The position numbers and the translations under genes were made by a program. Positions 16,834 through 25,683 of a stretch of DNA of 64,000 nucleotides are shown piece by piece. Position 1 is the first letter of the stretch, and every line of letters starts with the position of its first letter. This DNA comes from Sulfuricella sp. GTDB lineage: Bacteria; Pseudomonadota; Gammaproteobacteria; Burkholderiales; Sulfuricellaceae. Below the pieces are notes generated by a model. The model had not been told where the DNA came from and ran no database searches. It was given only the letters and a program-made list of their open reading frames with translations. The DNA is taken from positions 1-64,000 of the forward strand of contig JAQTMN010000003.1 of assembly GCA_028714315.1 (NCBI GenBank), given 5' to 3'.

Positions 16834-16905
16834 GGCGTAACCTCGGCCTTTCTGTAGGGTGCAATAAGCGAAGCGCATTGCACCGGATGACTGATGCGCA
16901 GTGGA

Positions 16906-18471
16906 TTATGCCGGTTTCGCGAGCGCCTGCAACACCGCCTTGAGCAGCCGCCAGCAGCGTTCCACCGAGGCGATTTCGACGCGCTCGCCGGGCGCATGCG
17001 CGCCGCGGATGTCCGGGCCGAAGGATATCATGTCCAGATGCGGATGGCTGGCGGCAAGCAGGCCGCATTCCAGCCCGGCATGGATTACCTGCAATCCGGC
17101 CGGCTGGCCGAACTCCCGTGTATACACATGTTGGCACAAGGCCAGGAGAGGCGAGTCCGGATTCGGCGTCCAGCCGGGGTAAGCGCCTGCTTTCGAGGCG
17201 CGCAGGCCGTGGCTTTCGGCGTGATCGACCAGCGCGTCGGCCAGCGCATCCGCGCGGCCATCGTGCAGCGAACGCACCTTGAAGGTGGCGCGGAATTCAC
17301 CTTGTTCGAGGGCAACCACGCCGAGATTATCGGAAGTATCGACCACGCCCGGAAAATTCTCGCTCATGCGCGCCACACCGTTGGCCGCGCTGTTGAGGAA
17401 GGTGAGCAGGCGATCCTGCTCTGCTTTGTTGATGGCCTTCTCCGTAATTTCGTTCCCTCCCTCCTCGGAGGAGAGGGCCGTAATTTCGTTCCCTCTCCCC
17501 TCCGGGGAGAGGGCTAGGGAGAGGGGAAGATCATCCGCACCCGGATGAAGACGTTCCTGCCGAACCGCCAAGTTTACCTTCGCATCCGCCCCCGCAAACC
17601 GCGACTGCCATACCGCATGTTTCTCCCGCACCCATGCCTCTATCCGGGCGCCATCGGCGGCGGGCAGCGCCAACACCGCGAACGCTTCGCGCGGAATGGC
17701 ATTGCGCGCCGTGCCGCCGGCAAGCGCAATCAGGCGCGGATCGGCAATCTCGGCCAGCCCGTCCAGCGCCTCCGCCAGCAGCTTGATCGCATTGCCGCGC
17801 CCGAGATGGATATCGATGCCGGAATGCCCGCCTTTCAGCCCGGCCACTTCCAGCCGCCACACAGCATAACCCGGCGGGACGGCTTCCGGCGGACAGGCAT
17901 GGCGCACCTCCACGTCCACCCCGCCGGCGCAGCCGAGATAGAAATGGCCCCATTCTTCGGTGTCCAGGTTGATCAGGGTTTTGCCTTGCAGCGTGCCCGG
18001 CGCCAGCCCGCGTGCCCCGTCCATGCCGGATTCCTCATTGACCGTGAGCAGCACTTCCAGCGCCGGATGATTCAGGTCCGGTTCCTCCAGCGCCGCCAGC
18101 GCCAGCGCCACCCCGATACCGTTGTCCGCGCCCAGCGTGGTGTTCTCCGCCACCACCCAGCCGTCGCGCACCACCGCGTTAATTGGGTCGCGCTCGAAAT
18201 CGTGCTGGGTGCCGGTGTTGGCCTGGCACACCATGTCGAGATGGCCTTGCAGGATCACGCCCGGCATTCCTTCGCAGCCGGGGCTGGCGGGCTTTGTGAG
18301 GATCAGGTTGCCGGCGGCATCGACGGTGGATGCGATGTGGTGACTCTTCGCCCAATCGATCAGGTGCCGGCGCATGGTGGCTTCGTGCAGCGAGGCGCGC
18401 GGGATGGCGCACAGCGTGGCGAAGTGGGACCAGACGGAGCGAGGGGGCAAGTTTTTCAAATCGTTACTCAA
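16906..18471 (-). CDS. pepD: Aminoacyl-histidine dipeptidase (peptidase D) with in-frame repeat insert
   Basis: LQGHLDMVCQ, NTTLGADNGIGVA, LTVNEESGMDGA, LINLDTEEWG. Confidence 0.9.
   Translation of the reverse strand: MSNDLKNLPPRSVWSHFATLCAIPRASLHEATMRRHLIDWAKSHHIASTVDAAGNLILTKPASPGCEGMPGVILQGHLDMVCQANTGTQHDFERDPINAVVRDGWVVAENTTLGADNGIGVALALAALEEPDLNHPALEVLLTVNEESGMDGARGLAPGTLQGKTLINLDTEEWGHFYLGCAGGVDVEVRHACPPEAVPPGYAVWRLEVAGLKGGHSGIDIHLGRGNAIKLLAEALDGLAEIADPRLIALAGGTARNAIPREAFAVLALPAADGARIEAWVREKHAVWQSRFAGADAKVNLAVRQERLHPGADDLPLSLALSPEGRGNEITALSSEEGGNEITEKAINKAEQDRLLTFLNSAANGVARMSENFPGVVDTSDNLGVVALEQGEFRATFKVRSLHDGRADALADALVDHAESHGLRASKAGAYPGWTPNPDSPLLALCQHVYTREFGQPAGLQVIHAGLECGLLAASHPHLDMISFGPDIRGAHAPGERVEIASVERCWRLLKAVLQALAKPA
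17443..17528. repeat. Two tandem palindromic repeats inside pepD, in frame
   Basis: CGTAATTTCGTTCCCTC..GAGAGGGC twice; encodes ALSPEGRGNEIT/ALSSEEGGNEIT. Confidence 0.85.
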
Positions 18472-18584: not shown

Positions 18585-18866
18585 ATGAATTTCGAATGGG
18601 ACGAATCCAAAAGCGAGGCATGCTTCCGCCAGCGCGGTTTCGACTTTGCCTACGCTGCGCAGGCTTTTTTCGACCCCAGCCGGATTGTCCACGCCGATAT
18701 TCGTCACAGCTACGGGGAAGACCGCTACCGGTTGATGGGTATGGTCGAGCAGCGCCTGTTCGTGGTGGTTTACACACCGCGACATGACGCGATGCGCATC
18801 ATTTCGGCGCGCAAAGCCAACTTACGAGAGGTCCGGCATTATGAAGACAGTACGCGTAACGATTGA
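18585..18866 (+). CDS. brnT: BrnT-family toxin
   Basis: FEWDESKSEACFRQRGFDFAYAAQAFFDP...RYRLMGMVEQRLFVVVYTPR...RIISARKANLREVRHY. Confidence 0.85.
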   Translation: MNFEWDESKSEACFRQRGFDFAYAAQAFFDPSRIVHADIRHSYGEDRYRLMGMVEQRLFVVVYTPRHDAMRIISARKANLREVRHYEDSTRND

Positions 18867-19173
18867 TCCCGCCGCGCTTTCCGAGGCGCATGGGCGCATT
18901 GACCCTACTCGCGTGGACGCCACCACCGAGGAGGAAATTGCCCTGCACCAGGCGGCTGACGAAGCCGAAGCGATGCTGGATGCCGCCAAATTCGCGCGCC
19001 GGGTGAGAAGGCGCCTGGGGTTGAGCCAGACGGAGTTTTCGCAACGGATCGATGTGCCGCTTGACACCATCCGCAACTGGGAGCAAGGCAAACGCCGCCC
19101 GACCGGCGCGGCCAAGGCGTTGCTCAAGGTGCTGGACAAAGCCCCCGAAGCCGCCCTGGCGGCACTCGGCTGA
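18841..19173 (+). CDS. HTH (XRE-type) antitoxin partner of BrnT
   Basis: RRRLGLSQTEFSQRIDVPLDTIRNWEQGKRRPTGAAKALLKVL; overlaps brnT by 26 nt. Confidence 0.8.
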   Translation: MKTVRVTIDPAALSEAHGRIDPTRVDATTEEEIALHQAADEAEAMLDAAKFARRVRRRLGLSQTEFSQRIDVPLDTIRNWEQGKRRPTGAAKALLKVLDKAPEAALAALG

Positions 19174-19344
19174 GAGCGGGTTGGTGAAGTGATTGGGGGT
19201 GCGGAACGAACAGGGACAATGTGAGCGGGGGATTGGAAACCATGGTCTGTCCCGGATTTTCGGATTTTCTCTGATTAAGCGTAGCGCATTGCACTGGATG
19301 TTTGGTGTGCGTGGCGGCGCTATGCCGACACAATTGGGCTCGTT

Positions 19345-20400
19345 TTAAATTGAAGCAAGAATGGTCTTTAAATATCCTCCCCTGGTTATGCGCTCCTGTT
19401 TGTTGTTAACAGCCTCTCTAGCGGCCAGTTCAAAATCTTCAGGGACATCCTGTTCGAACTTAATCAGAGCGTCCCGCAAGCTATCCCTGGCAACGGGTTT
19501 ATCTGAACGAAGATGCTCTGCCAGTTCAGTATGTAAAGTAAAAAATGGGGCTTTCTTTAACCAAAGACTTTTTTGTGGAAGTTGTAGTGCCAGAATTTCT
19601 TTAGCCGTCTTATCCATGATCGATGTTACTAAGTCTTTGGCTGGAAATTGCTCGGCATAATTGTCCAAACACTCTCTTGAGCCTTCATTGCGATGGAAAT
19701 AACCAGATAAAATGGTTGCCATCAGATTTAGCGCATATTGGAGAGGTACCTTTCTAATTATCTCTCTATCCGAGAAAATTTCATTGTTAAGCAATAGCTC
19801 TTGGATGGAAGTAATATTTTGCTTCTTTCCCCAATCAATAAGCTGTGGCGGTATATTCGGATCAATTTGAAACTCCTCTGAATTTTCAAGATCAACATCG
19901 TCAACAAACAACCGTGCAACAAACATAAACTCTGAAGGGGCGTACTGGGACGCCATCTTTTCTATTGCCGTCAATGAATTGGCCGTTCTATTGATTCTTT
20001 GGAATATCTCCTTAACAGCGGGGTCGTTGTTGTCTATATCCAGTTCAATTACAGCAACATCATACTTAAGAAATGTCTCTTTTTCCGCTCCAGTTAAATC
20101 TTTAAAGTATCTACCATCTACCGGGAATCCATTTTCTATGAAATTAACAATGGCATTCGTTCTTTGCTGTCCATCAACGATGCAAGATGTCGTTACCATG
20201 TTTTCAATATCAACAGATCCTTTTGATATAAATATTTGTGGAAACGGAAAACCTAGAAGAATGGTCTTAATAAAATCTTGTTTATGAATATCTCGCCAAA
20301 CAAGGTTTCTTTGGAAATAAGCATCTGGAATAAGTCGTTTTGCTTTTATTTCATTGTAGATTCCAATAAGGTCGCGTGACCGAACATTATATTTAATCAT
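19345..20400 (-). CDS. DUF262-domain protein
   Basis: LIPDAYFQRNLVWRDIHKQDFIKTILLGFPFPQIFI...CIVDGQQRTNAIVNFIENGF...FQRINRTANSLTAIEKMAS. Confidence 0.82.
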   Translation of the reverse strand: MIKYNVRSRDLIGIYNEIKAKRLIPDAYFQRNLVWRDIHKQDFIKTILLGFPFPQIFISKGSVDIENMVTTSCIVDGQQRTNAIVNFIENGFPVDGRYFKDLTGAEKETFLKYDVAVIELDIDNNDPAVKEIFQRINRTANSLTAIEKMASQYAPSEFMFVARLFVDDVDLENSEEFQIDPNIPPQLIDWGKKQNITSIQELLLNNEIFSDREIIRKVPLQYALNLMATILSGYFHRNEGSRECLDNYAEQFPAKDLVTSIMDKTAKEILALQLPQKSLWLKKAPFFTLHTELAEHLRSDKPVARDSLRDALIKFEQDVPEDFELAAREAVNNKQERITRGGYLKTILASI

Positions 20401-20972
20401 ACGATTTCAATCTCCTGAGATTGTATAGAGCTTCTCTGTTTTAACGTGTAAATGGTTTCAGAAAGATATATTCCTGCATTGATGTTCTTAAAGCGTTCGG
20501 CATATTCATTCGAAAGACGGTTAAAGAAAGACCAGATTCTTTGTTTTTCCGGCCCTTTTGGCATAAGGTCTGGTCTAAGAATTCCTCGTCCGGAATAGTT
20601 TAAAAATTGGTTTCTCAGTGATTTCCCTTCCTCGGTTGGAAACATATCCGGCCTAAATCCTTCAGACCTCTCATAGCACTGTTCTAGGAGTTGCTGAAAA
20701 AGTCGTGCATCGATTATCGCTACATCAAGATCAGATTCCCTTTCGAGGAAAGGTCTCTTTTTTATAAAACTGTAACCGGTATGCGCTGAGCCGGATATCC
20801 TGATAGATGAGAAAGGTATTTTGAACTCACAGGATATCTTGTTAAAGATTTCAAACTGAACTTCCGGATGATCAAGGAAATAATTGCATGGGTATGATAA
20901 AAATACTTTTTTTACATTACCATAGTTCGAGGAGCCAGATTCAATAGCTCTTTTATGAATGTTGTTGGGCAT
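20397..20972 (-). CDS. Putative nucleotidyltransferase-fold protein upstream of and coupled to DUF262 gene
   Basis: IRISGSAHTGYSFIKKRPFLERESDLDVAII fits hGS...DxD; 4-nt ATGA overlap with 19345..20400. Confidence 0.55.
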   Translation of the reverse strand: MPNNIHKRAIESGSSNYGNVKKVFLSYPCNYFLDHPEVQFEIFNKISCEFKIPFSSIRISGSAHTGYSFIKKRPFLERESDLDVAIIDARLFQQLLEQCYERSEGFRPDMFPTEEGKSLRNQFLNYSGRGILRPDLMPKGPEKQRIWSFFNRLSNEYAERFKNINAGIYLSETIYTLKQRSSIQSQEIEIV

Positions 20973-20995
20973 TATTTAAGTTCTCTTCAAGAAGC

Positions 20996-21091
20996 TTCTG
21001 TAGCCCCGGATGGAGCTTCGCGTAATCCGGGATTGTGTCTCGACGCCATAATTGTCTCGTATTTCGCTCCGCTTCATACGGGCTACAATCT
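20996..21091. repeat. Dispersed intergenic repeat P10 (GTAGCCCGTATGAAGCG...ATCCGGG), reverse copy
   Basis: Related copies at about 25593..25683 and 57339..57427. Confidence 0.7.
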
Positions 21092-21102
21092 TTCGTTTCC
21101 CA

Positions 21103-21483
21103 TCACCCCTTTGTCACCCCATCCAACCCCAGCGCCAGAATCGCGGCATTACGGGTCAACAGTGTCAGCCTTTCGTCGTAAGCCTGGGCGATCAGCAGCC
21201 GGTCGAACGGGTCGGGGTGGGTGCAGGTCAGGCTGCGCGCCGCTTCGATGTGGCGCGGCAGGATGGGCAGCAGGACGAAGCCTTGTGTTTCCAGTTGTTC
21301 CGTCAGCGAGCCTTCCGGCAAAGGCAATTTGCCTTTTGCGTTTTTCAGTACCATTTCCCAGATGCTGGCGGTGCTGACCACGATTTCGGTTTTGGCGATG
21401 ACGCGCTGTGTCGCTTTGGTCAGGCGTTTGTCCGCCGTCATCCACCAGTAGATCAGGTGGGTGTCGAGCAGATGGCGCTTCAA
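21103..21483 (-). CDS. PIN-domain toxin (VapC-like)
   Basis: LLDTHLIYWWMTADKRL...PDPFDRLLIAQAYDERLTLLTRN. Confidence 0.88.
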   Translation of the reverse strand: MKRHLLDTHLIYWWMTADKRLTKATQRVIAKTEIVVSTASIWEMVLKNAKGKLPLPEGSLTEQLETQGFVLLPILPRHIEAARSLTCTHPDPFDRLLIAQAYDERLTLLTRNAAILALGLDGVTKG

Positions 21484-21752
21484 GGCAGGTCGCCGCCTGT
21501 CAGTTCATCGGCGATGGCGGTGTTGGTTTCAGGCGAGTCCCAATCGGCTTTGGCCTTGGGCAGCCCGGCCCATGCGCCCGGCTTGCGCGAGAAATCCTGT
21601 GGGCCGATCTTGACCAGCCTGACGACGGGAACGCCTTTGTTGGCGATTACCACGTCCTCGCCATCCAGCGCGGCCTGGACGAGTTTGGAAAGCTGGCTTT
21701 TGGCTTCAAGCATATTGCATTGCATGGTTGCCTCCGAAGGAAGTTGCATCAT
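21480..21752 (-). CDS. Phd/YefM-type antitoxin
   Basis: MQCNMLEAKSQLSKLVQAALDGEDVVIANKGVPVVRLV; overlaps toxin start. Confidence 0.87.
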   Translation of the reverse strand: MMQLPSEATMQCNMLEAKSQLSKLVQAALDGEDVVIANKGVPVVRLVKIGPQDFSRKPGAWAGLPKAKADWDSPETNTAIADELTGGDLP

Positions 21753-21779
21753 GCATAAAGTTTACACCGGCTGGCTAAG

Positions 21780-22163
21780 TTAGCCAATGATTGCCGTTGC
21801 CCAGTCCAGCGTTTGCGCTGCTATGACATCGACTTCTTCACTGCTGAGATTGGAGATGACTTCATCTCCATAGCGGAACTCCACCGCATAAGGATTGATT
21901 TGCGCTAACACTTCGGCGTTGCTGGGCGGCGAGATACCGGCTTTTTCAAGCTGGTCGGCCAGTTCGTAAAGGTCGTGGGTCTTGCGGAACGCCTCGCCGC
22001 GCGTGAAAAGCACGGCTTTCAGGCTTTTCTCGATAGCCTGTTGGGCATGGAAGAAAGCGAGGGCCGGGCGGATGTGGGGAATGGCTGCCAATATCCGAAA
22101 AGCGGCCAAGTCGTCGCCGGCCAGTTTCAGGAAACGCCGGGCTTCGTCAAGCGAGGTTGTCAT
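21780..22163 (-). CDS. HEPN-domain toxin
   Basis: FFHAQQAIEKSLKAVLFTRGEAFRKTHDLYELADQLEKAG. Confidence 0.87.
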   Translation of the reverse strand: MTTSLDEARRFLKLAGDDLAAFRILAAIPHIRPALAFFHAQQAIEKSLKAVLFTRGEAFRKTHDLYELADQLEKAGISPPSNAEVLAQINPYAVEFRYGDEVISNLSSEEVDVIAAQTLDWATAIIG

Positions 22164-22470
22164 GCAGCACCTGGCCTTCCTTGATCGCCCAATATGGCAG
22201 GGTGCCGGGAACCTGGCTGCGGCGCAGGGCTTCTTCTTCCGAATAGACCAGCACGTCCACGCCGGCGCCGATGCCACCGATGGCGCGGCGTAGGCGCAGA
22301 TATTCCGCCGCCTTGTCCGGCAGATCCTTTTCGATAACCATCAGGTCCAGGTCAGAATCTTCGTCTGCGGTTTCGCGCGCATAGGAGCCGAACAGGATTA
22401 CGCGGCAGGGTGAACTGGCGGCGGCAACCAGCCGGGCGGTGGCAGCACGTATGGTTTCCATGTTGATCAT
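22147..22470 (-). CDS. MNT-type nucleotidyltransferase antitoxin
   Basis: VILFGSYARETADEDSDLDLMVIEKDL. Confidence 0.88.
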   Translation of the reverse strand: MINMETIRAATARLVAAASSPCRVILFGSYARETADEDSDLDLMVIEKDLPDKAAEYLRLRRAIGGIGAGVDVLVYSEEEALRRSQVPGTLPYWAIKEGQVLHDNLA

Positions 22471-22606
22471 TCAGACTCTCCCAATGGTCGTGCCCCTTAG
22501 TTTACCTTCTTGTCGGCTTGTACCGTGCCCCGCTCTTGGCGCGTTTTAATGGCTAATCAGGAGGCTTGGCCATTTCCTGGTCGATACGATTTTCCCAGGC
22601 GAAAAA

Positions 22607-22972
22607 TCAAGCCGCAGCCTTCAACGTGAAGTCCGCGTGAATTTCATCCCATGGCACGAATACCTTGCCGCTGGAGTTTTTTTCGATGAGGCCTAATGCC
22701 AGCAATTTCGCGGCGTCGGAATGGACATTGCTGTAGTTGCGCTTAAGCTGTTTGGCCAGTGCGTATAGCGTGGTTGGGCCACACGCCTTGAGCGCTTCCA
22801 GCATTGCCCAGCGAGTCGGGGTCAGCGCCGTGAGCAGTTGGGGCATGTTGGCAAAATTCAGCGTCTCGCGTGGCGTGATGCTTTGCCCTGACTCGGCGGC
22901 TTTCCACGCTTCAAGAACATCTTCACCCATCTGCTTCAGGGTTTTGGTTCCGATTTCAAGTTTCTTCATCAT
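22607..22972 (-). CDS. Winged-helix/HTH protein, putative antitoxin
   Basis: LTPTRWAMLEALKACGPTTLYALAKQLKRNYSNVHSDAAKLLALGLIEK; overlaps upstream DUF6516 gene. Confidence 0.72.
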   Translation of the reverse strand: MMKKLEIGTKTLKQMGEDVLEAWKAAESGQSITPRETLNFANMPQLLTALTPTRWAMLEALKACGPTTLYALAKQLKRNYSNVHSDAAKLLALGLIEKNSSGKVFVPWDEIHADFTLKAAA

Positions 22973-23255
22973 CGACCTCCGCCAGTTTTGCAACGTCGCC
23001 AAGAAAATCTGCTACCAAGCGCTCCGGCGATACAAATACATAAGGGTGTTCTTCATTCCCGTAGTGGATGTGATCGCCTTTGCCGCTTTCGTTGTCGTAA
23101 CGCACAATGCAACGATCATTCCGGCCGCAATAAAACCGGTATTTCAATCCATGCGGCCGGTCGCCGGTTGGTTTGGGCAATTGCCAAAGCACCATCTCCA
23201 CCAGCACGCCGTTAGCGTAAATCTTTTTGAGATGGCGGATTAGCCTGGCTTTCAT
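22956..23255 (-). CDS. DUF6516 (TumE-like) putative toxin
   Basis: VEMVLWQLPKPTGDRPHGLKYRFYCGRNDRCIVRYDNESGKGDHIHYG. Confidence 0.65.
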   Translation of the reverse strand: MKARLIRHLKKIYANGVLVEMVLWQLPKPTGDRPHGLKYRFYCGRNDRCIVRYDNESGKGDHIHYGNEEHPYVFVSPERLVADFLGDVAKLAEVDDEET

Positions 23256-25562: not shown

Positions 25563-25592
25563 GGCCGTGGCGCCCTCGGACGGGGCGTCGGA

Positions 25593-25683
25593 ATGTAGCC
25601 CGTATGAAGCGCAGCGGAATACGGGGTCGGTCTTGGCTTCGAGACGCAATCCCGGATTCCGCAAAGCTTCATCCGGGCTACGT
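25593..25683. repeat. Dispersed intergenic repeat P10, forward copy
   Basis: TGTAGCCCGTATGAAGCGCAGCGGAATACGGGG...CATCCGGGCTAC. Confidence 0.7.

Follow-up and report, generated by a model that had tools for sequence, protein, structure and literature searches.

Proteins with a DUF262 domain recur in anti-phage systems, and the members that have been studied mostly act through an HNH nuclease that is either fused to the domain or paired with it. GrwAB and TgvAB are two-protein DUF262 systems in which the second subunit is not a nuclease (PMC12409362). Anti-phage activity is abolished when the arginine of the DGQQR motif is mutated in GrwA or GrwB (PMC12137116). Menshen consists of a DUF262 gene and a gene for an OLD-type nuclease (PMC10952713), and operons that join DUF262 with HEPN genes were predicted in 2013 (PMC3710099). 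Nucleotidyltransferases (NTases) form a second group of relevant proteins. The toxins AbiEii and MenT have a nucleotidyltransferase fold and are encoded in small conflict operons (PMC3985639, PMC11541572). The MntA protein has a GSX10DXD motif, holds its metals by D39, D41, and D71, and works through GS, S38, D39, and D41 (PMC7641770). Here, a gene pair is described in which a DUF262 protein without an HNH nuclease is joined to a protein that looks like a nucleotidyltransferase.

The pair lies in a stretch of 64,000 nucleotides from Sulfuricella sp. (contig JAQTMN010000003.1), which is referred to as the window. Sequence and ORF calls place two open reading frames on the minus strand. The first gene of the operon (20397..20972) encodes the NTase-like protein of 191 aa (P0002), and the second gene (19345..20400) encodes the DUF262 (GmrSD_N) protein of 351 aa (P0001). 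They are coupled by an ATGA start/stop overlap on the same strand (20397..20400). The same 4-base overlap is present in 12 of 70 homologous pairs, and the stop and start codons are at most 20 nt apart in 62 of the 70. The GC content of the pair is 38.4% compared with 62.8% for the window, and the pair is the most AT-rich 1.6-kb stretch in it. An earlier note on this DNA had pointed to both the ATGA-coupled frames and the AT-richness relative to the surroundings, and both were confirmed. Just beyond the NTase start, a segment of about 90 bp (21000-21090) has copies with 80–83% identity in several places of the genome, including 25591-25681 in the window; the AT-rich island is thus bordered by a dispersed repeat. 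Other short sequences (window 16853-16890 and 17490-17530) have many copies in this genome and in its relatives and resemble REP-like or intragenic repeats.

The DUF262 protein is readily recognized. The Pfam model GmrSD_N matches residues 14–153 (E=2.8e-19), and the characteristic motifs are strongly conserved. The QR motif (Q30 R31; 20308..20313, minus strand, as are all motifs given here) is found in 70 of 71 homologues, while the DGQQR motif at residues 76–80 (20161..20175), which is predicted to form an NTP pocket, is found in all 71. F133, R135, and N137 of the FxRxN motif (F133–N137; 19990..20004) are equally invariant (71/71), and so are both arginines of a C-terminal RxxR (R337 and R340; 19381..19392) that follows an all-helical region. 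No match to DUF1524 (PF07510) was found in the protein at E<=1, and no DUF1524 protein, and hence no GmrD, is present in the genome assembly (85% complete), in which this is the sole DUF262 protein. The structural model matches BrxU with a Z score of 9.2 over 282 residues, a match that spans the DUF262 and the helical parts, and the next structural matches are ParB CTPases, SspE, and DndI. The DUF262 motif set without a DUF1524 HNH segment, as read in the earlier note, is borne out, and the ParB matches agree with the ParB-like fold expected there. The best PADLOC matches are PD-T4-2_A and NsnA, which we take to be a component of Menshen; they cover only about the first 90–150 residues.

Since its motifs, the order of its structural elements, and the direction of all weak matches agree, we regard the 191-aa protein as a divergent nucleotidyltransferase of the pol-beta type. 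Its GS helix carries the sequence GSAHTGYS (residues 61–68; 20769..20792), in which G61, S62, and S68 are each conserved in 72 of 73 homologues and G66 in 71. The SDLD sequence (residues 80–83; 20724..20735) contains the predicted metal-binding DxD, and S80, D81, and D83 are invariant (73/73). Across the family, the spacing between GS and DxD is mostly 16–19 residues, and the proteins are 190–210 aa long. In the AlphaFold2 model (pLDDT 82, pTM 0.78), a strand is followed by the GS helix and then by the DxD strand, with the DxD at the start of a predicted strand at residues 82–87. The two top matches in VIA-align are the MNT antitoxins 7bxo (Z 5.6) and 8xeh (Z 5.4). These scores are modest; AadA, CdnD, pol beta, and TUT7 rank below, and unrelated folds score about equally, so that the fold match alone is not conclusive for an NTase. 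Foldseek alone found no significant match for the model in PDB or BFVD. Searched singly, neither protein of the pair had a sequence match to solved structures, and no Pfam, PADLOC, NCBIfam, or PHROG model matched or describes the 191-aa protein. Among its homologues, Pfam NTP_transf_2 matches 10 of 45 at E<=0.1 (best 4e-4). The best PDB profile match is an NTase, with a weak E value of 0.17. The hGS...DxD signature proposed earlier is present and conserved, and of the proposed NTase fold, the motifs and an NTase-like predicted structure were found, with weak statistical support.

This protein is probably an active enzyme, but its activity is uncertain as judged from the sequence, because no conserved third metal-binding acid was found. 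Across the 73 homologues, D81 and D83 are the only acidic positions that never vary. Residue 79 is acidic (E/D) in 67 of 73 but adjoins the DxD. A partly conserved acid, D135 of the RPDLMP motif (20568..20570), is an aspartate in 64 of 73; it is the best candidate for the third catalytic acid but was rejected as a general answer, since it is replaced in close relatives of the window protein (L026, L028, and L030).

The NTase and DUF262 genes form a conserved and mobile two-gene module, arranged as one operon with the NTase gene first. In phages, viral contigs, genome contigs, and 200 related genomes, no direct protein relative of the 191-aa protein was found except the protein itself. A tblastn search gave one relative, on the Cronobacter plasmid pA84-3, where it is encoded next to a homologue of the DUF262 protein. 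The NTase family was found through this plasmid pair and then with profiles of two to eight rows, which revealed rare members in Pseudomonadota genomes and also on viral contigs and plasmids. A scan of one genome per species, for the NTase only, gave 63 loci in about ten phyla, namely Pseudomonadota, Cyanobacteriota, Bacteroidota, Bacillota, Actinomycetota, Planctomycetota, Poribacteria, Acidobacteriota, Spirochaetota, and Chloroflexota. In 60 of the 63, a DUF262 gene lies directly downstream on the same strand. These are all 60 of the evaluable loci, i.e., those in which the NTase is intact and the contig extends far enough; two loci at contig ends (L047 and L049) and a decayed remnant (L073) were left out. 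A few of the 60 paired loci contain frameshifted genes (e.g., L032, L036, L037, and L042). Since the searches used the NTase only, the DUF262 partner is an independent test, and the pairing supposed in the earlier note is thus conserved in other genomes. Evolutionary distances of the two proteins are correlated (r=0.93 for 59 pairs; the best of 5000 permutations gave 0.23), which, as the permutations ignore shared ancestry, means that the two are inherited together and need not imply contact between them. No third conserved gene recurred among the neighbours of 46 loci. A more distant NTase relative on the Aliarcobacter plasmid pM830MA (L004:5932-8591) has a DUF4365+TPR protein after it where DUF262 would be expected; partners of the NTase may thus not be limited to DUF262.

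Horizontal acquisition, which the earlier note had deduced from base composition, is well supported. The AT bias is a property of the whole family: in 56 of 57 measurable pairs, the AT content exceeds that of the flanks, with a mean difference of 13 points. None of 199 related genomes has the pair, and its site varies within the genus: same-genus genomes keep the dipeptidase and ABC-F genes on either side, but what lies between these two genes differs and does not include the pair. In the tree, the window pair adjoins that of a betaproteobacterial MAG, in a clade that also has members from Acidobacteriota, Spirochaetota, and Bacteroidota. In one of the same-genus genomes (G002, L128:2649-4366), the same interval holds a DUF262 gene with 41% GC, followed by a gene that was assigned to HEPN because its product has an RNHIAH motif, as is typical for HEPN RNases, and weakly matches another DUF262 partner in BLAST. 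Phage 689R6 (L022:2492-4203) has, beside its integrase, a DUF262 gene with a 216-aa partner that has no Pfam match and carries a HEPN-type RNACAH motif.

In the window, the pair sits amid four toxin-antitoxin (TA) loci (18585-23255). On one side, there is a BrnT toxin with an HTH antitoxin (18585..19173, plus strand; Pfam BrnT_toxin 4e-25, HTH_3 1.3e-8). On the other side, all on the minus strand, there are a PIN toxin with a Phd/YefM-like antitoxin (21103..21752; PIN 2.5e-12, PhdYeFM 1.1e-5, the latter below its cut-off), a HEPN gene with a canonical MNT (21780..22470; HEPN 2.5e-18, NTP_transf_2 1.4e-9), and a TumE toxin with an HTH partner (22607..23255; TumE 6.1e-15, HVO_A0114 3.4e-22). In other genomes, the 147 nearest neighbours are mostly housekeeping genes with scattered defence domains (two cytosine methylases, DarT, SWI2/SNF2, and two RVT; raw counts without a control set). 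Placement in defence islands was therefore rejected, and the neighbourhood survey suggested in the earlier note yielded conserved pairing and no clear defence islands around the pair. Small TA and Abi modules frequently move by themselves; for this reason, the lack of clear islands weakens a defence role but does not exclude it.

Taken together, the analysis indicates that the pair is most likely a virus-defence or self-poisoning module. We tentatively favour, at somewhat less than an even chance, a stand-alone, mobile, two-protein conflict module, probably anti-phage, in which the DUF262 protein would be the NTPase sensor or switch and the NTase would be the effector. The scheme starts from the conserved operon, with the NTase gene first and the DUF262 gene second. 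By analogy with BrxU, SspE, and GrwAB, the DUF262 protein would bind and hydrolyse NTP as a switch and would sense DNA that is foreign or modified, or some other sign of infection. The NTase-fold partner would be the output, a role that the HNH nuclease has in GmrSD enzymes. When released or activated, it would transfer a nucleotide to an essential target, for example, tRNA ends or a protein; the infected cell would then stop growing or die, which would protect the population. The division into sensor and executor follows the analogy of the partners that related DUF262 proteins have.

Several lines of evidence speak for this sensor and effector module. The NTase-only search returned complete pairing, the two proteins are co-inherited, and their stop and start codons lie close together. 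The DGQQR, FxRxN, and RxxR motifs are invariant and QR is nearly so, and the DGQQR arginine is the one whose mutants are inactive in GrwA and GrwB. The model of the DUF262 protein covers both the DUF262 and helical parts of BrxU. Other HNH-less DUF262 proteins of similar length have small partners of the effector type: they are followed by a HEPN gene at two loci (L021 and L025), and on the Asticcacaulis plasmid pASTEX02 (L024:3001-5143), the DUF262 gene overlaps a gene for a Ser/Thr protein kinase. The pair with a HEPN signature in the same variable interval of the same-genus genome points in the same direction. The presence of the NTase–DUF262 pair on viral contigs and plasmids and the nearly universal AT-richness of its loci favour a mobile conflict module. 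Against the sensor and effector module stand the missing third catalytic acid and the mostly housekeeping neighbours in other genomes. A bolder form of the proposal, possible and held with less confidence than the general one, is a hitherto undescribed, widespread anti-phage family in which nucleotidyl transfer, and not DNA cleavage, would be under the control of a DUF262 DNA sensor of the BrxU/SspE type, as one version of a wider plug-in design whereby HNH-less DUF262 switches drive a HEPN RNase, a kinase, or a nucleotidyltransferase.

The main rival, unlikely but of real weight, is a TA pair in which the DUF262 protein would act as a toxin, either a ParB-like nuclease or an NTPase, and would be silenced by the NTase as antitoxin, which would attach a nucleotide to it, as MntA does to HepT. 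The folds nearest to the NTase model are precisely MNT antitoxins, and the GS, S38, D39, and D41 of MntA match G61, S62, S80, D81, and D83 here. The gene order, with the antitoxin-like gene leading and the other coupled to it, and the position of the locus among TA genes are further points, both of which fit an antitoxin equally well and count against the effector role. However, when the NTase profile is aligned (hhalign) with that of the MNT in the window, no more than 19 columns in the DxD region are covered, at a probability of 45%. D71, the third acid of MntA, has no conserved counterpart, and the NTase is longer than the MNTs (190–210 versus 80–150 aa). Furthermore, no DUF262 protein that acts as a free-standing toxin was found in the literature searched. 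Sequence data cannot choose between the NTase as an effector and the NTase as an antitoxin.

It is rather improbable that the NTase is an inactive, nucleotide-binding regulatory subunit and that the DUF262 protein itself is the effector (a ParB-like DNase or nickase) of a two-subunit restriction factor without HNH. The missing third acid, the non-nuclease second subunits of GrwAB and TgvAB, and the invariant, unexplained RxxR at the DUF262 C terminus agree with it, but the nuclease of GrwAB is still a DUF1524 domain, which is absent here, and an invariant DxD and GS would not be expected for a dead enzyme. A CBASS-like pair, with the NTase making a nucleotide second messenger and the DUF262 protein serving as receptor and effector, is very unlikely. 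CdnD and other CD-NTases are among the weaker fold matches, and the DUF262 protein has a nucleotide pocket; nevertheless, about 190 aa is far below the 300–350 aa of the CD-NTases in the fold-match list, the PADLOC Cyclase model weakly matches only 1 of 11 NTase members (E=0.023), and there is no third acid. Finally, the view that this is a GmrSD relic, i.e., an orphan GmrS-like gene beside an unrelated gene by chance, is almost certainly wrong. A length limited to DUF262 resembles that of a separate GmrS, and the assembly has no GmrD, but pairing and motif conservation over about ten phyla, together with the distance correlation, rule out chance neighbours.

A conserved partnership of DUF262 with an NTase-like protein in about ten phyla, unnamed in the catalogues checked, would mean that the DUF262 switch can operate through a chemistry other than that of a nuclease. 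The pair is small and clonable, has evident point mutants (D81A/D83A in the NTase; R80A and R337A/R340A in the DUF262 protein), and is suited to studies of how a separate effector is governed by a sensor of DNA modification.

Compared with known systems, the pair shares the DUF262 domain with its QR, DGQQR, and FxRxN motifs with GmrSD, BrxU, SspE, TgvAB, and GrwAB, of which BrxU is the top structural match. It differs from the GmrSD family in that neither protein, nor the assembly, has a DUF1524/HNH nuclease, and from TgvAB and GrwAB in that the partner is an NTase-fold protein and not a second DUF262 protein. HEPN-MNT (HepT-MntA) is similar as a two-gene module with a pol-beta-type GS...DxD nucleotidyltransferase, but the partner here is always DUF262 in the evaluable loci and never HEPN, the NTase is larger, the GS–DxD spacing is typically 16–19 instead of 10 residues, and a third acid is not conserved. 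Menshen and PD-T4-2 also have a DUF262 component, which resembles the present protein over the N-terminal part only; no OLD nuclease lies next to the pair, whose window neighbours are TA genes, and the NTase family matches no PADLOC model of PD-T4-2. AbiEii and the MenT toxins are likewise NTase-fold proteins in small conflict operons, but no family match to them was found, and the partner is DUF262 and not an AbiEi or MenA antitoxin. In PADLOC 2.0.0, matches were confined to the generic part of DUF262 and did not amount to a complete system, and the pair is described nowhere in the open-access papers searched (preprints and subscription papers fell largely outside this search), which agrees with the earlier note that it is not a named system; unpublished or machine-generated candidate lists may include it. 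The operons of DUF262 with HEPN (RiboL-PSP-HEPN and MAE_28990 types) are alike in combining an HNH-less DUF262 protein of about 350–380 aa with a small partner and in their occurrence on plasmids and phages, while they have a HEPN RNase downstream where the present pair has an NTase-like protein upstream. The pair is thus set apart from GmrSD by its nuclease-free composition and from HEPN-MNT and Menshen by its partner, and, by the catalogues and papers checked, it is filed as a previously uncatalogued variant among DUF262-centred conflict systems.
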